Notes under the pieces: generated by a model | What the model was told of the DNA's origin: nothing | The model's database searches: none | What the model saw: the letters and a program-made list of their open reading frames with translations, nothing else | Translations under genes and position numbers: made by a program | Shown here: positions 3,141-54,638 of the stretch, one piece after another | Layout: each line of letters starts with the position of its first letter | Numbering within the stretch: position 1 is the stretch's first letter | Assembly (NCBI GenBank): GCA_001417715.1 | Contig: BBRT01000024.1 | Span: 1-64,000, forward strand | Length of the DNA stretch: 64,000 nucleotides | From: Candidatus Symbiothrix dinenymphae | GTDB taxonomy: Bacteria; Bacteroidota; Bacteroidia; Bacteroidales; Azobacteroidaceae | Direction: 5' to 3'

Positions 3141-4344
3141 ATCTCAATTGTTTTAATGCAATACCTGCTTGTTCGCCGAACAAGGGCGGAATCGCGTTGC
3201 CTATTTGTGTATATCGCGGCACTTCAACTTTTCGTAGTTTTCCTCCGGTAGTATATTTGCCTTTAAATTCAAAATCATCGGGAAAACTTTGCAGGCGGGC
3301 GCACTCGCGTACTGTTAAGATACGTGGCTCGCAGTAATGAATCATATCATCGGGATGCGAAGTCACGGTTGGTGCTTGCTCGTTGGGCTGCAAAGGAACT
3401 AAAACCTGTGTGTGAATATTTAATTGCCGCTTTAAGTCTTCCGAAATGTTTTTACATTCGGAGCTAACCAACTGAATATATTTCAATCGTGCAACCGTTT
3501 TGGGGTTTTGTTTTGCAAAACTGTGGCTATCAGGAACATTAAATGGTTTTGTTTTTTTTCTGGCGAATTTTTGGTAATTGGATTTTGCCACATAGTACTT
3601 TCCACTCGCAAATCCCTTTCTATCTGGAGTTTCTATCACCTCCCCCGAAAGCAAATCAGACAAAGCATCTTTAATAGTTGGTTGTACATCAAGTTGTTTT
3701 TCTTTCAAAAATGAGAATTTGTTTTGTTCCAACAGCTTAAAAAAATAGTGAACTTTTTTTTCACTTGCATTTTCTAAATCTTTTCTCATTCCTACAAGAA
3801 TAAAGCGTGTTCGTTTTTGAGGCACACCGTATTCGCCAAAATTGATTAACTTTCCATAAACATAATACCCTGTTTTATCCAATTCTGAAGTAACTATTTC
3901 TGAATAGTGTTTCCCTTTTTGAGCGTTACTTCGGAACGCCATAGTGAAACCCTTGACATTTTCAAAGAGAATCAGGTCGGGTTTTACAAGCGACACAAAT
4001 TTTATGTAGGAATCTATTAATTTATTGCGTTCGTCATTTTCATCGCGTCTGCCAGCAATAGAAAACCCTTGACAGGGTGGTCCTCCAGCTATCAATGTAA
4101 CTTTTCCCTGTAACTTTTCCAATTCGGAAGAATAGTCTTTGATAACGTTATTTATGTCATGAGCTTGTTTCGGTAACCAATCTGGCCAATCAAAATGTTT
4201 TATTTTGTCTATTAGGTTAAATTCTAATGTTTTAAAGGCATGAGGACTTTTTTCTATAGCAAAAAGTCCCTCCCATCCCGAATTATGCAATCCGAGAGAT
4301 AGTCCTCCGCATCCGGAAAATATGTCTATATATGTATGTTTCAT
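3133..4344 (-). CDS. dcm: DNA (cytosine-5) methyltransferase (Dcm type)
   Basis: A 403-aa C5-cytosine methyltransferase with all hallmark motifs in order: motif I DIFSGCGGLSLGL (7-19), the catalytic Pro-Cys motif IV GGPPCQGFS with Cys91, motif VI ENVKG, motif VIII QKRTRF, motif IX LTVRECARLQSFPDD and motif X QIGNAIPP near the end. The enzyme transfers methyl from SAM to C5 of cytosine in a specific duplex site; the site cannot be read from sequence. It starts 11 nt after hsdS and overlaps the GHKL gene by 8 nt, so it belongs to the same transcription unit. A C5 methylase downstream of type I M and S genes is not a standard type I arrangement. Chromosomal orphan Dcm enzymes exist, but the operon linkage suggests a joint island. 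Confidence 0.95.
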   Translation of the reverse strand: MKHTYIDIFSGCGGLSLGLHNSGWEGLFAIEKSPHAFKTLEFNLIDKIKHFDWPDWLPKQAHDINNVIKDYSSELEKLQGKVTLIAGGPPCQGFSIAGRRDENDERNKLIDSYIKFVSLVKPDLILFENVKGFTMAFRSNAQKGKHYSEIVTSELDKTGYYVYGKLINFGEYGVPQKRTRFILVGMRKDLENASEKKVHYFFKLLEQNKFSFLKEKQLDVQPTIKDALSDLLSGEVIETPDRKGFASGKYYVAKSNYQKFARKKTKPFNVPDSHSFAKQNPKTVARLKYIQLVSSECKNISEDLKRQLNIHTQVLVPLQPNEQAPTVTSHPDDMIHYCEPRILTVRECARLQSFPDDFEFKGKYTTGGKLRKVEVPRYTQIGNAIPPLFGEQAGIALKQLRYG

Positions 4345-4355
4345 TGTCCGTTACA

Positions 4356-5600
4356 TTATGTTTTTGCAAAATTACTAAAAATTTCTTTTATTTCAATTTT
4401 CCCACTCATCAACCGCGGCAATAAATTATTCCGAACCTGTGTAAGAGTCTGATTATGTGAATAATTCTCTATTATTCTTTCAAATAACGAATTGATAATA
4501 TTGCCAAATTGTTCTATTATTTCATTATTTGGTAATATTATCTCTACATTTTCGATTTGGCTTGCGCTGATATTCGGCTGAGCACTTCCACTTGCTGTGC
4601 TTAAAAGTACATTTTGATATTCAGGTGTTGAAAGAATTAAATATGAAAACCATTTCGAATATTTTGTCTTTTCTCTAAATGAGCCAACACGTTGATTTAG
4701 CCAAAGTTCTTTATCGGTGTTTGGAACTATCCCGACCTTACCTACTTCTGCACCTGTCATTGCAATTAGCAAATCTCCACTCTTCACTTTGAAACGTGAA
4801 TCAATATTTTCAGCAACAACATTTGGAATATATTGCATATTGATAATATCAACAACATTATTCGAGATATTTTTTATTTTCAAAATTCCATTTTCTCCTT
4901 CATTTGAAAAATCATCACTCTTAAATGCGTATCCATTTTGGATAAAAGTAATTTCTCCTAATCTTCCTTTTTTCCACCCTTTCGGCAATCCATCCACCAA
5001 CATCCCATCTGCGCCCGGAAAGTGAAAATCCACAAACCATTCCTTAAAAATAGCCTGAGCCATAGCCTCCAGCGTTATATTCATCTGCAAATTGAGTTCT
5101 ATTTTGTCGTCAAGGGAAGAGAGAATTTTGGCGATTTTGCACTGGTCTTTAATATTTACAGGGATTGTTATTTCAATATTATCAAAAAGAGGCGCATTAA
5201 ACGCAGGAAAGGTTGTCGTGTTTGCTTCGGCAACGCTATTCAAATAAAAAACAATTTCATCTGTCGTTAGATAATAAAATAGAAAATCAGGGTCAATATT
5301 TTTTGCGCTCAATACTGCAAATCCAGTTGAAGCGATTGTATTTGGTTTGGGATTTTTAACAATTCCATAATGGCGCAATATAGGTCTAACTGTTGAATAA
5401 ACAATGTCGTTATTCTTAACAATTCGCTTTGCTCTGCTTGGGGCATCTTCTATTTTTAATTTTTGAATGCCTGAAAAGCGATTTTCGGTCACTGAAGAAG
5501 TATCTAAATATTCTATTGTATCATATTCAAAATCCTTATTTATAGAGCATTGATTAATGTCTATAAAATTTCCCAATCTATATGTTTTCCAATCGCTCAT
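4356..5600 (-). CDS. hsdS: Type I restriction-modification specificity subunit
   Basis: A 414-aa HsdS with two target-recognition domains (about 1-165 and 205-370). Each is followed by a conserved helical spacer: [20 protein letters not shown] around 173-192 and [20 protein letters not shown] near the C-terminus. These spacers bind HsdM and set the gap in the bipartite recognition site. Length is normal for the family. The ATG overlaps the hsdM stop by 4 nt (ATGA). Both TRDs appear intact, with no truncation or inverted repeats that would suggest a shufflon. The function is to direct HsdM, and HsdR if one exists, to its site. Confidence 0.93.
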
Positions 5601-7126
5601 ATAATGTATCCTATCTTTAACAAGTTTACTTTTATCGCTTCATCCAATTCATTTGCCTTTTGCATCTGCTCTTTCAATGTCGCTGTCAACTGCTGCATTT
5701 TTTCGTCAAATGTCTGTCCGTCATCTTCCGCTTCTTTAAAATCAATATATCTGCCGGGCGTAAGCACATAATTGTTTTTGCGAATTTCCTGAATGTTTGC
5801 GGATTTGCAAAACCCAGCCGTATCGTTATACTTTCCCGATTCTTTGCCTCTCCAATTATGATAGGTGTCGGCAATTTGTTCAATATCCTTGTCTGTAAAT
5901 TCTTTTTGCTTGCGACTTATCATTGTGCCCATGTCGCGGGCATCAACAAACAAAATTTCATGACTGCGATTTCTGAATTTTGTGGTTTCTGTTTTATTTC
6001 GGGATAAGAACCACAAACAAGCCGGAATTTGCGTGTTGTAAAATAATTGTGCCGGCAAGGCTACCATGCAATCAACTAAATCATGTTCAATCAATTCTTT
6101 CCTAATTTGTCCTTCGGTAGATATTTCGCTGCTCATACTGCCATTGGCTAATACAATACCCGCTGTGCCATAAGGTGCTAACTTGCTGATGAAAAGCTGC
6201 AACCAAGCATAATTGGCATTCCCTTGTGGCGGCAATCCATATTTCCATTTATGGGTTTCAGCTGGATTTATTTTATAATCGCTTACATTAAAAGGCGGAT
6301 TAGCCAATATATAATCCACTTTCAATTCCGGAAATTTATCGTTCAACAGAGTATCACCCAGTTCTATTTTGGCATCAATTCCACGAATGGCCAAATTCAT
6401 TTTTGCCAAACGATAGGTGGTGGGATTACTTTCCTGCCCAAATATGGAAATTTTACCCCTGCGGTGTTCGTGCAATTCTATAAAACGTTCGCTTTGCACA
6501 AACATACCACCACTACCGCAACAGCCGTCATACACACGTTTTTCAGGCTCGGGCGCAAGCACTCCTACCAACAGTTTTACGATACTTTGAGGAGTGTAGA
6601 ATTGTCCTCCTTTTTTACCTTCGGCATCGGCAAACTGCCCCAGGAAATATTCAAATACAAAACCAAGAACGTCTTTTCCCTTTCCGTTGCCACTTTTACT
6701 CAATGTGATAGAGCCAATTAAGTCTATCAATTCCCCTATACGTTGTTTGTCTAATGCAGGTCTGGCATAGTCTTTGGGTAAAACACCTTTGAGCGAAGGA
6801 TTGTCTTTTTCAATGGCATCCATGGCATCATCAATGTCCTTGCCTATAGTAGGCAGTTTGGCACGCCCTTGTAACCATTTCCAACGAGCTTGAGGTGGAA
6901 CGTAAAAAACTCTTTCGGCGGTATATTCGTCTTTGTCTTCGGGGTCAGCACCGGTTTCGTTCTTTTCGGCATCCAATTTCTGAAACAACTCTTCAAAAGC
7001 ATCCGAGATGTATTTAAGGAATATCAATCCCAATACAACATGCTTGTACTCTGACGCATCCATATTGTTGCGCAGTTTGTCGGCTGCCTGCCAAAGCGTT
7101 TTCTCGAGCTCTAAATTTTCTGTCAT
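5597..7126 (-). CDS. hsdM: Type I restriction-modification DNA methyltransferase subunit (adenine-N6)
   Basis: A 509-aa N6-adenine methylase of the HsdM family. The N-terminal helical HsdM_N domain ([13 protein letters not shown]) is followed by the SAM-binding motif in [11 protein letters not shown] (189-199) and the catalytic NPPF motif (266-269). It is the first gene of the four-gene minus-strand operon. The next gene upstream is a divergent amidase, so hsdR is not on that side. A weak -7-like box (TATCTATG) lies about 10 nt before the start. With HsdS it should form the M2S methyltransferase. No HsdR is encoded anywhere in the window, so restriction either depends on a gene beyond the IS66 or has been lost. 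Confidence 0.95.
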
Positions 7127-20644: not shown

Positions 20645-20674
20645 TTTATATTATATATTTACAAATTCAGGCTG

Positions 20675-20682
20675 CAAAGATA
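20675..20682 (-). promoter_or_regulatory. -7 box of the AAA/DUF4143 gene
   Basis: TATCTTTG on the minus strand, 30 nt before the ATG. The tandem array begins 16 bp further upstream. Confidence 0.65.
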
Positions 20683-20697
20683 CGAAAAAAAAAACAC

Positions 20698-20812
20698 TTT
20701 TTGGAAAAAATGGCACCGAGATTTGGTCATTTTTTGGAAAAAATGGCACCGAGATTTGGTCATTTTTTGGAAAAAATGGCACCGAGATTTGGTCGTTTTT
20801 TGGAAAAAATGG
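20698..20812. repeat. 33-bp tandem repeat, about 3.5 copies
   Basis: Units start at 20698, 20731, 20764 and 20797 (partial). Each consists of TTTTTGGAAAAAATGG followed by CACCGAGATTTGGTCAT. The first two are identical and the third has one change (CGT for CAT). The array is intergenic, upstream of the ATPase promoter. An open frame across it (FGKNGTEIWSF repeated) is a by-product of the 33-nt period. Confidence 0.95.
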
Positions 20813-52316: not shown

Positions 52317-52608
52317 TGTGTACTTTTGCGCCGTTAAACAGCAAAAAAAATGAAAAGTTAAAAATTAAATTATAATAACAGGGCTTTTAGCTCTTATTCT
52401 CCTGCGTTCGAAATCTGGTAAATTTCTTCCGAGGATAAGTTGCGAAGGTTCACGTCTAATTGGGCGTGAACTGTTTTCGGACTTATTTGGAAGAAATGGT
52501 TTGCCAGAGCCAGAACGTAGAAATGAGCACACAACGAGCAGTATCGCGCTTTTAGTTTGCCGATGGGTTTGAGGGTTTTGGCATAAACCCCTAATTTATT
52601 ATCGGTAA
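52317..52608. other. 292-bp region with an orphan promoter and a possible decayed frame
   Basis: A TACTTTTG box (52321-52328) leads to ATGAAAAGTTAA, a three-codon frame, so a former gene may have been lost behind its promoter. On the minus strand, 52394-52600 is open without stops (VYAKTLKPIGKLKARYC, ISPKTVHAQLDVNLRNLSS) with gene-like codons but no recognisable family. It may be a remnant. Confidence 0.35.
52321..52328 (+). promoter_or_regulatory. Orphan -7 box
   Basis: TACTTTTG; the first ATG after it is followed by a stop after three codons. Confidence 0.45.
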
Positions 52609-53217
52609 ATGAAAGTGAAACAGACAGTTGCAGCATTCGATTTTGACGGAACAATTACGACCCGCGACTCACTATTGGAATTTATTAGTTTTGCGAAAGG
52701 ACCGCTGGTTTTTTTATGGGGATTTTTGTTGTTTTCACCGCTATTGATAGCCTGCAAACTTAGACTCTATCCGAATTGGAAGGCAAAGCAGCGCTTGTTT
52801 TCGTTCTTCTTTACGGGGATGAAACTGCATGATTTCAATCAACTTTGCGATACGTTTTGCCAACAATCCATGCACTTAATTCGCAGGCAGGCAATCAGTT
52901 CCATTCAAAAACATATCGAAAAGGGCGATTCTGTCCTAATAATCAGTGCAAGCATAGAAAATTGGGTACGCCCGTTTGCCGAATACCTGGGCATATCAAA
53001 CATCCTGTGCACCCAATTGGAAATCGACCAAGAGAGTTGCTTAACCGGTCGCTTTGCCGACACCAATTGCTATGGAGCAGAAAAAAAACGGCGGTTGCTT
53101 CAGCTCTACCCGCATCGGGGCGAATACCGCTTAGCCACATACGGCGATTGCAAGGGCGATAAAGCGCTATTCCTGACTTTGACAATGCGTTTCCCTAAAC
53201 AGATTCAAAAAAAATAA
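52609..53217 (+). CDS. HAD-superfamily IB hydrolase with displaced C-terminus
   Basis: A 202-aa protein of the HAD-IB phosphatase group (TIGR01490-like): motif I AFDFDGTITTRDS (Asp10, Asp12), motif II IISAS, and motif III/IV YGDCKGDKALF. Family members continue past this point. Here the frame enters CTGACTTTGACAATGCGT, a sequence also found at the end of the 138-bp element, giving LTLTMRFPKQIQKK. The native C-terminus is therefore lost, while the catalytic aspartates remain. Possible substrates are phosphoserine-like or lysophospholipid phosphates. No -7 box is evident just upstream. Confidence 0.8.
   Translation: MKVKQTVAAFDFDGTITTRDSLLEFISFAKGPLVFLWGFLLFSPLLIACKLRLYPNWKAKQRLFSFFFTGMKLHDFNQLCDTFCQQSMHLIRRQAISSIQKHIEKGDSVLIISASIENWVRPFAEYLGISNILCTQLEIDQESCLTGRFADTNCYGAEKKRRLLQLYPHRGEYRLATYGDCKGDKALFLTLTMRFPKQIQKK
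53173..53190 (+). repeat. 18-bp sequence shared with the 138-bp element end
   Basis: CTGACTTTGACAATGCGT, identical to 43690-43707, again at the point where a gene loses homology. A matching second end was not found nearby. Confidence 0.8.
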
Positions 53218-53264: not shown

Positions 53265-53272
53265 TACCTTTG
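53265..53272 (+). promoter_or_regulatory. Strong promoter of the structured leader
   Basis: TACCTTTG with an ATTG 19 bp upstream in an A/T-rich context. The downstream protein start is 469 nt away. Confidence 0.7.
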
Positions 53273-53420
53273 CGCCCGAATTTGTTCCCTGCGGGTTGAG
53301 CAAATGTCAACCAGTATTGGCTCGAATGAATGGGCGAATTTGGCAAGTGATAAACCCTTTAAATAATAGGAGATTATGAAGACATAACAGCGGTAATACG
53401 CACATTTTAAGACATTTGGG

Positions 53421-53606
53421 AAAAAGCGTTATAGCTTAATATTTTGGTGTTGTGAAATCTCGAAAATTTCTGTGATGACCAAAGAAGGTAAAGCAAATAC
53501 GCTCGTGCCGTTTCGGCAAGGGCAAAAATCGTTTTATTTTGGTCATCAGGTATTCGAGAACCTCACAGCACGGAGAAAGAATTAGAATTTTGTCCGCGCT
53601 TTTTTT
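53421..53606 (+). ncRNA. Candidate structured RNA, 6S-like rod
   Basis: Nested pairings form one long hairpin. They are AAAAAGCG (53421-53428) with CGCTTTTT (53597-53604), GTGTTGTGA (53447-53455) with TCACAGCAC (53563-53571), TCTCGAA (53458-53464) with TTCGAGA (53553-53559), TGATGACCAAA (53473-53483) with TTTGGTCATCA (53538-53548), and TGCCG-TTT-CGGCA at the tip (53506-53518). The outer stem ends in a T-run. Length (about 186 nt) and the rod shape recall 6S RNA, but no family motif could be checked. It could instead be a cis-acting leader of the lipoprotein gene. Confidence 0.55.
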
Positions 53607-53741
53607 ATGCTGCGTATAGTGAGGAAGGACACAGTTGCCCAACAACTGCTTAAAAGGGGGCAAGACACCTACGAAGCCGTTTAGAGTAGGAAAAATAAAA
53701 ATAATGGTCTGTTTAAGGAACGGACGTAAAAATTTAGAATA

Positions 53742-54638
53742 ATGAAAAATTTAAGAAATGTATTTTTTGTAGCAGCTACGGCTGCGTGTGCGAGTGTTTT
53801 TGTAGGGTGTGATTCGGACGATCCGCTGAATGTAAATCAACGGGATCGTTTTTCTATCTATGTAGCTGACAATAACGGACCGCTTGCAGGTGCTACCGTA
53901 AAATCACTGAGCGATGGCACAGAAGCGACCACCGATGAAGGTGGAATTGCAGCCTTGGAAGTACCGGCCGGCAATACTCTTGTATCGGTTGGAAAAGAAG
54001 GCTATGCTACTGCGCTCGCCTCCCTACCATCCAGTAGTAATGTAACTTTGACAAAAAGTGGAGCGAAAGTATCAGGGTATGTAACTCTTTCCGATACAAT
54101 CGGAACAGGCAGCATCTCCCGCGAAAATGTAAGCCCTGCTGCAAGTGTTTCTTTTGAAATCACTCTTCAAGGTTCATATCTTACTAGAAAGTTTTCAGCA
54201 ACTACTGATGTAAATGGTAAGTATGAAATAACCGGTCTTCCTGAAAATGCCTCCTTCACCTTTGCCTCTGAAATAACGGTAAATGGGAAAAAGTATAGCA
54301 CCGGAGGATACACCCATCCAACAGGAACGGTAAACGCGCCGTCGCCAGTAAGTGTGCAGTATAACCAGGTTATTCCAGCAGTAGAGCCTTTTGAAATAAT
54401 TAGTTATCTCGCTACGGTAGGCTTAAACGCGAGCATAGTTATTAAGTTTAATCAGGCTGTCGCATCGGAATCATTGTATACGTCGCCTTCTGGTGGTACT
54501 GTAACTTATACCGGCAATACAGTGACGATTGCACCTCCGGTAGGTGGATGGATAGGAAGTCTTGAGTATGTGGACGGATTTGTTGTTTCGGCTAATGGTC
54601 AGTATAGCTATCCTCGTAAACAGATCTTAATCAAATAA
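53742..54638 (+). CDS. Lipoprotein with carboxypeptidase-regulatory-like domains
   Basis: A 298-aa lipoprotein: lipobox ASVFVGC (Cys23) followed by DSDD. A beta-sandwich domain (SIYVADNNGPLAGATVKSLSDG) and a CarboxypepD_reg-like domain (VSFEITLQGSYLTRKFSATT, DVNGKYEITGLPENASFTF) follow. The C-terminal region ends QYSYPRKQILIK. Likely surface exposed; function unknown. It lies behind a long structured leader and is closed by a terminator, so it is probably a single-gene unit. Confidence 0.82.
   Translation: MKNLRNVFFVAATAACASVFVGCDSDDPLNVNQRDRFSIYVADNNGPLAGATVKSLSDGTEATTDEGGIAALEVPAGNTLVSVGKEGYATALASLPSSSNVTLTKSGAKVSGYVTLSDTIGTGSISRENVSPAASVSFEITLQGSYLTRKFSATTDVNGKYEITGLPENASFTFASEITVNGKKYSTGGYTHPTGTVNAPSPVSVQYNQVIPAVEPFEIISYLATVGLNASIVIKFNQAVASESLYTSPSGGTVTYTGNTVTIAPPVGGWIGSLEYVDGFVVSANGQYSYPRKQILIK

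Follow-up and report, generated by a model that had tools for sequence, protein, structure and literature searches.

The 64,000-nucleotide window of Candidatus Symbiothrix dinenymphae DNA analyzed here contains, between the end of a HAD gene (53217) and the start of a lipoprotein gene (53742), a gap of 524 bp that had been predicted to be gene-free and to encode a long rod-like RNA, either 6S RNA or a long regulatory leader of the lipoprotein gene. The gap was confirmed. The 186 nucleotides at 53421–53606, where a single hairpin had been placed, gave a minimum free energy of −64.2 kcal/mol, far below the −39.3 ± 3.6 kcal/mol of dinucleotide shuffles (z = −7.0; 0 of 200 shuffles as good). The predicted perfect 11-bp stem was present (53473–53483/53538–53548). 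The predicted outer A/U-rich stem and T-run (53600–53606 in the window copy) were also present, but the stem is nearly invariant, and covariation therefore cannot prove it; it stands as a candidate helix compatible with the data. A local hairpin, AAGC-GTTATA-GCTT, competes with this outer stem.

A DNA search of the organism's own genome, a 3.5-Mb draft, yielded ∼25 diverged copies of the element, mostly 67–80% identical. The covariance model R1 returned 54 matches in the same genome, corresponding to ∼50 loci, with two matches being antisense echoes of a copy. Matches of R1 to the 57 sequences of set A1 arise by construction, those at the order and class levels being independent, and its E-values are rough. 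Judged by sequence comparison, the hairpin is one copy of a multi-copy, strongly conserved, and undescribed 5′-leader RNA family. The original drawing of five nested stems in one rod was correct in that the fold is real, but the conserved unit proved to be larger, and the middle “stem” corresponds to a predicted loop-loop contact of two hairpins. The parts of the window copy are as follows.

53387–53629, + strand: leader RNA core, the family unit (R1, 203.5 bits, E = 1e-54)
53396–53405, + strand: 5′ closing strand, ATACGCACAT, able to pair with 53607–53617 or with the upstream GCG at 53390–53392
53607–53617, + strand: 3′ closing strand, ATGCTGCGTAT, of helix 1
53421–53428/53597–53606: outer A/U-rich stem, paired in 99% of cells and hardly varying
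53447–53455, + strand: 5′ strand of the P2 stem, GTGTTGTGA, with its partner TCACAGCAC at 53563–53571 (5 of 5 counted pairs compensatory)
53454–53470, + strand: hairpin A, GAAA-loop-TTTC, whose loop bases 53458–53464 (TCTCGAA) are predicted to touch hairpin B
53548–53563, + strand: hairpin B, AGGT-loop-ACCT, loop bases 53553–53559 (TTCGAGA), three stem pairs with double changes
53473–53548, + strand: P4 arm, containing the 11-bp stem (6 of 6 counted pairs compensatory)
53501–53509/53515–53523, + strand: apical hairpin in the P4 arm (5 of 7 pairs compensatory)
53592–53606, + strand: terminator-like 3′ end, the T2 strand GTCCGCGC plus a U-run (a T-run of at least five ends 195 of 210 copies)

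RNAalifold, applied to the 57 aligned cores, returned 45 pairs, 26 of them with double changes. The named structure comprises 62 pairs, and pairing holds in 93.4% of its cells, compared with 84.0% in shuffled and 37–49% in slid controls. Double changes occurred in 36 pairs and 370 cells of this structure, against 24.0 and 108, respectively, after shuffling, and none of 500 shuffles reached the observed number of pairs. Compensatory change in homologues, the test put forward with the original prediction, was therefore found, and very strongly so; the covariation is decisive for a conserved structure. Copies from other orders had the same fold by covariation (24 double-change pairs; 0 of 500 shuffles).

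The loop-loop helix was among the best-supported helices, with 6 of 7 pairs compensatory and 99% paired, and distinct loop pairs reached 7 bp in 65% of cases within a copy versus 4.6% across copies. For P2, helices of at least 7 bp formed in 85% of cases within a copy versus 13% across copies. The stem of hairpin B covaries (AGGU/ACCU, AGCC/GGCU, and UGGC/GCCA), and double changes in the stem of hairpin A were seen in the copies from other orders. Because both hairpin stems covary, two contacting hairpins are favored over a plain straight rod; the data favor a rod middle formed of two hairpins with complementary covarying loops, which may kiss or form the equivalent nested pairing. The less favored arrangement is a nested rod that keeps this middle helix but has no kissing hairpins. 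A further long-range stem, helix 1, can close the conserved unit through pairing of 53396–53405 with 53607–53617 (91% of cells paired; five pairs with double changes), and the alternative upstream hairpin of the ATACGCACAT strand had a mean stem of 4.2 versus 3.4 in shuffled sequences. A hairpin AAAAGC-GTTA-GCTTTT is at most a candidate helix, its stems in set A1 being no longer than in shuffles and showing no excess in set A2, where it is also poorly aligned.

Size and rod shape (∼180–190 nt), and nothing else, speak for a 6S RNA, that is, a free RNA that binds RNA polymerase. 6S RNA is normally a single-copy gene, and as a free-standing gene of this kind the element was rejected, given its ∼50 genomic copies and their position before same-strand genes: in 195 of 210 non-redundant copies, a same-strand ORF followed within 400 nt downstream, at a median of 56 nt from the end of the model. 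Rfam 15 at gathering thresholds gave no match anywhere in the 64-kb window, 6S families and 6S-Flavo (RF01685) included, and no 6S family was found in the element at permissive E-values (up to 10). Such a covariance-model search had been suggested as a check, and the 6S reading is now scarcely credible. The element is more probably an RNA switch for the downstream genes: in contrast to 6S RNA and 6S-Flavo, it is multi-copy and appears to be part of mRNA leaders.

No tRNA or tmRNA was present in the window. A single weak match of the element to EGFOA-assoc-1 (20 bits versus a cut-off of 224.5) was not repeated in other copies and was taken as chance. The element was also without an Rfam match in 20 loci that carry diverged or named copies, where the only matches were two DUF805 RNAs adjoining it. 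The Bacteroidota RNA papers that were searched contained nothing on the element, and the families of the main 224-motif paper are mostly in Rfam. Flavo-1 (RF01705) and Bacteroidales-1 (RF01693), computed motifs of the same phylum with unknown function (PMC2864571), were not matched at gathering thresholds. Matches to Flavo-1 lie sense or antisense indifferently (PMC9723704), whereas the leader element is nearly always sense and before a gene. Structured leaders are known as a kind, but this family of them is new, and it is unusual in its copy number, loop-loop fold, and mini-ORF.

Inspection of the sequences flanking the core revealed a promoter box and a mini-ORF upstream of the window copy, and the same arrangement at a second, diverged copy that sits upstream of the HAD-type hydrolase gene (52609–53217; Pfam HAD).

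53265–53272, + strand: −7 box TACCTTTG of the leader's own putative promoter, start site expected at ∼53279, conserved among the own-genome copies
53376–53387, + strand: mini-ORF ATG AAG ACA TAA, with GGAG ahead of it at 53369–53372
53742–54638, + strand: lipoprotein gene, 298 amino acids, with a carboxypeptidase-regulatory-like domain (Pfam CarboxypepD_reg, 6.7e-7, below the curated cut-off)
52352–52576, + strand: second, diverged copy (R1, 35.8 bits, E = 1.5e-8; fold z = −5.5)
52321–52328 and 52350–52361, + strand: promoter box and mini-ORF (ATG AAA AGT TAA), respectively, of the second copy

The −7 box is of the Bacteroidetes type and agrees with the promoter that had been predicted ∼150 nt upstream of the hairpin. 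TAnnTTTG occurred within 130 nt upstream of 173 of 209 copies (83%) versus 8.6% in shuffles. A scan of the 524-bp gap for σ70 promoters and simple terminators gave nothing above chance, as expected in this phylum. A mini-ORF of two to four codons (ATG, one to three codons, and a stop) lay just before the core in 68% of copies versus 26% in shuffles, two-codon forms numbering 105 versus 25 expected and three-codon forms 76 versus 21; examples are ATG ATA TAA, ATG ACA TAA, and ATG GTA TAA, besides that of the window copy. Among the own-genome copies, the frame of the mini-ORF is kept while its codons and stop vary. Judged by eye, the mini-ORF appears to be absent from many copies of other orders. 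The GGAG ahead of the mini-ORF ATG in the window's species is unusual in the phylum and absent in more distant members of the genus. The own-genome copies conserve the promoter, the mini-ORF, two sequence blocks, and the end TTTTGTCCGCGCTTTTTTTATG, and the sequence of the rod differs yet stays paired.

The position of the copies supports the second half of the original prediction, namely that the RNA may be a long regulatory leader of the following gene. Typical 5′-untranslated regions in the phylum have a median length of ∼24–32 nt (PMC9723704), so that the leaders of this RNA family are exceptional. The downstream proteins were exported-like in 82% of cases (84% when only downstream ORFs that encode 150 or more amino acids are counted), compared with 35% of the other ORFs of at least 150 amino acids in the same loci, as called by a simple hydrophobicity and lipobox rule that is cruder than a signal-peptide predictor. 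No Pfam family was common to the downstream genes, which encode outer-membrane barrels, leucine-rich repeats, TonB plugs, BACON, PEGA, acyltransferases, MBOAT, and a sigma factor. Among the diverged own-genome copies, some are followed by genes that lack an export signal (HAD, acyltransferase, and small regulators). Comparison across copies establishes the conserved structure, the leader position, the association with exported genes, and the own promoter as features of the family.

Within the genus, 25 of 41 genomes were carriers, the organism's own genome included. Across the order Bacteroidales, R1 matched 52 of 149 genomes and 46 of 132 genera, with 114 matches in the Candidatus Symbiothrix MAG Hs463_bin48, 14 and 13 in MAGs of Coprobacter and Culturomica, respectively, and 5 in Alistipes muris. 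In a sample of 247 genomes from the phylum, 16 other genomes of the class had one to three R1 matches each. A scan of public genomes with a conserved 22-mer reached Candidatus Symbiothrix MAGs, termite-symbiont genomes, Prevotellaceae, Tannerella, Alistipes, Culturomica, Coprobacter, and Dysgonamonadaceae, and two hairpins with complementary loops were present at most of these sites. A Flavipsychrobacter site of the 22-base pattern (L132) was without kissing hairpins and was taken as chance. A viral origin was also rejected: an 18-base core pattern occurred in four viral stretches, none of which had hairpins with 7-bp loop pairing.

The conserved end of the element suggests how it might act. 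The T2 strand, immediately before the U-run, is complementary to T1, the 3′ strand of the apical hairpin, and the two strands change together in diverged copies (AGCATGGGTATT with GATACCCATGCT, GTACGGGCTTTTGG with TCAGAAGTCCGTAT, and GGCGTGAACTGTTT with GAACAGTTTACGCT). Among 44 diverged copies, T1:T2 pairings of at least 8 bp (up to 14 bp) formed in 61% of cases within a copy versus 31% across copies; the signal was modest in the well-conserved sets A1 and A3. Given that the pairings of T1 with its apical partner and with T2 are mutually exclusive, we infer a choice between antiterminator and terminator. The ends of the element offer a second alternative: ATACGCACAT can pair with a strand immediately before it or, beyond the U-run, with ATGTGCGTAT. 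Of the proposed steps, attenuation is the least certain for the window copy, in which T1 (GGCAAGGGC) is a poor match to T2 and the weak local alternative hairpin is no better than shuffles.

In the proposed mechanism, a short leader would be transcribed from its own σA-type promoter, mostly with a two- to four-codon mini-ORF followed by the ∼220-nt fold. In the read-through fold, the loop-loop contact would hold the rod and keep T1 from T2, allowing RNA polymerase to continue; in the stop fold, the rod would be lost, T1 would pair with T2 beside the U-run, and transcription would end. The choice could be biased by a small molecule, a protein, or ribosome occupancy of the mini-ORF, and such a signal-biased choice would set many surface genes together. 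It is fairly probable that the copies belong to a cis-acting leader RNA family that is widespread and as yet undescribed, with transcription attenuation as the inferred part. That a class-wide switch senses one global signal (a small molecule, a second messenger, or a dedicated protein) and, within a single bacterium, coordinates dozens to >100 genes whose products are exported surface proteins is a tentative proposal, whose chances we place a little short of even.

Purine-class riboswitches are transcription-attenuating and have loop-loop contacts. The element resembles them in its leader position, in a junction held by two hairpin loops, and in a strand common to rod and terminator, but differs in having a four-part junction with a long arm, no Rfam match, and tens to >100 copies per genome before genes that share export rather than a pathway; it also has no known ligand. 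The leader position, the U-run, and the presence of one RNA before many operons would also suit a leader that recruits an antitermination protein, as with NusG paralogues such as LoaP of Bacillota; the fold would serve as the protein site, and the modified polymerase would pass a terminator or pause at the U-run. LoaP provides a precedent, binding a leader hairpin and suppressing the leader terminator (PMC12691694), and its targets are similarly structured leaders followed by an intrinsic terminator (the U-run here being terminator-like) and common to several operons. The LoaP site is, however, one small hairpin, found in Bacillota and without kissing loops or a mini-ORF, whereas the present fold is much larger, and the T1:T2 covariation suggests that the RNA itself switches; we regard protein-mediated antitermination as unlikely.

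Control of translation or stability without attenuation, in which the rod would serve processing or stabilization while mRNA life or initiation would be set by ribosomes on the mini-ORF or close to the start codon, would account for the conserved mini-ORF and for a leader that usually ends ∼56 nt before the gene. In axe-txe, a two-codon leader mini-ORF acts in cis and raises expression, possibly by mRNA protection (PMC8708949). This explanation leaves the U-run with its covarying T2 and the loop-loop contact unaccounted for, and it appears quite improbable. With up to 114 copies per genome, some near contig ends in MAGs, the element might also be a selfish or mobile repeat that landed upstream of genes by chance. 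The constant orientation and spacing relative to the start codon, the own promoter, and the compensatory changes across copies and orders led us to reject this very remote reading, and they show that function has been selected at each site.

Bacteroidales are dominant in animal guts and depend on their surface proteins for their way of life. An RNA family that is conserved across the class, has no Rfam match, and reaches 114 copies per genome before surface genes would be a major unrecognized layer of surface control, and a regulon under one global signal would exceed in scale those known for leader RNAs. The proposal is directly testable, since copies occur in gut Alistipes, including the cultured strain Alistipes muris DSM 112343 (L123).

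Several individual loci showed further arrangements. A weak R1 match at 20671–20756 of the window (13.8 bits, E = 0.017) may be a remnant of the leader RNA or chance. Two own-genome copies (L009 and L010, on C281 and C70) are identical, have the same upstream gene, and are probably an assembly duplicate. In L024 (∼3408–6400), four or more related lipoprotein genes (MTKLKNVFFMAAMAASVSVFSGCGDDGDPS…), each with a similar start region, form a tandem array downstream of one leader copy. In MAG Hs463_bin48 (loci L121, L136, L147, L161, and L194), some copies lie in tandem ∼700 bp apart, and many precede genes for short exported proteins of one family (MKRLKLVLLVAALLFT…TAQVVIG). The two DUF805 RNAs (RF03081), representatives of a known Rfam cis-regulatory motif, lie directly downstream of the leader RNA (L202, 1826–1891; L210, 1411–1479), and two Bacteroidales genomes thus carry two structured RNAs, leader RNA and DUF805 RNA, in tandem.
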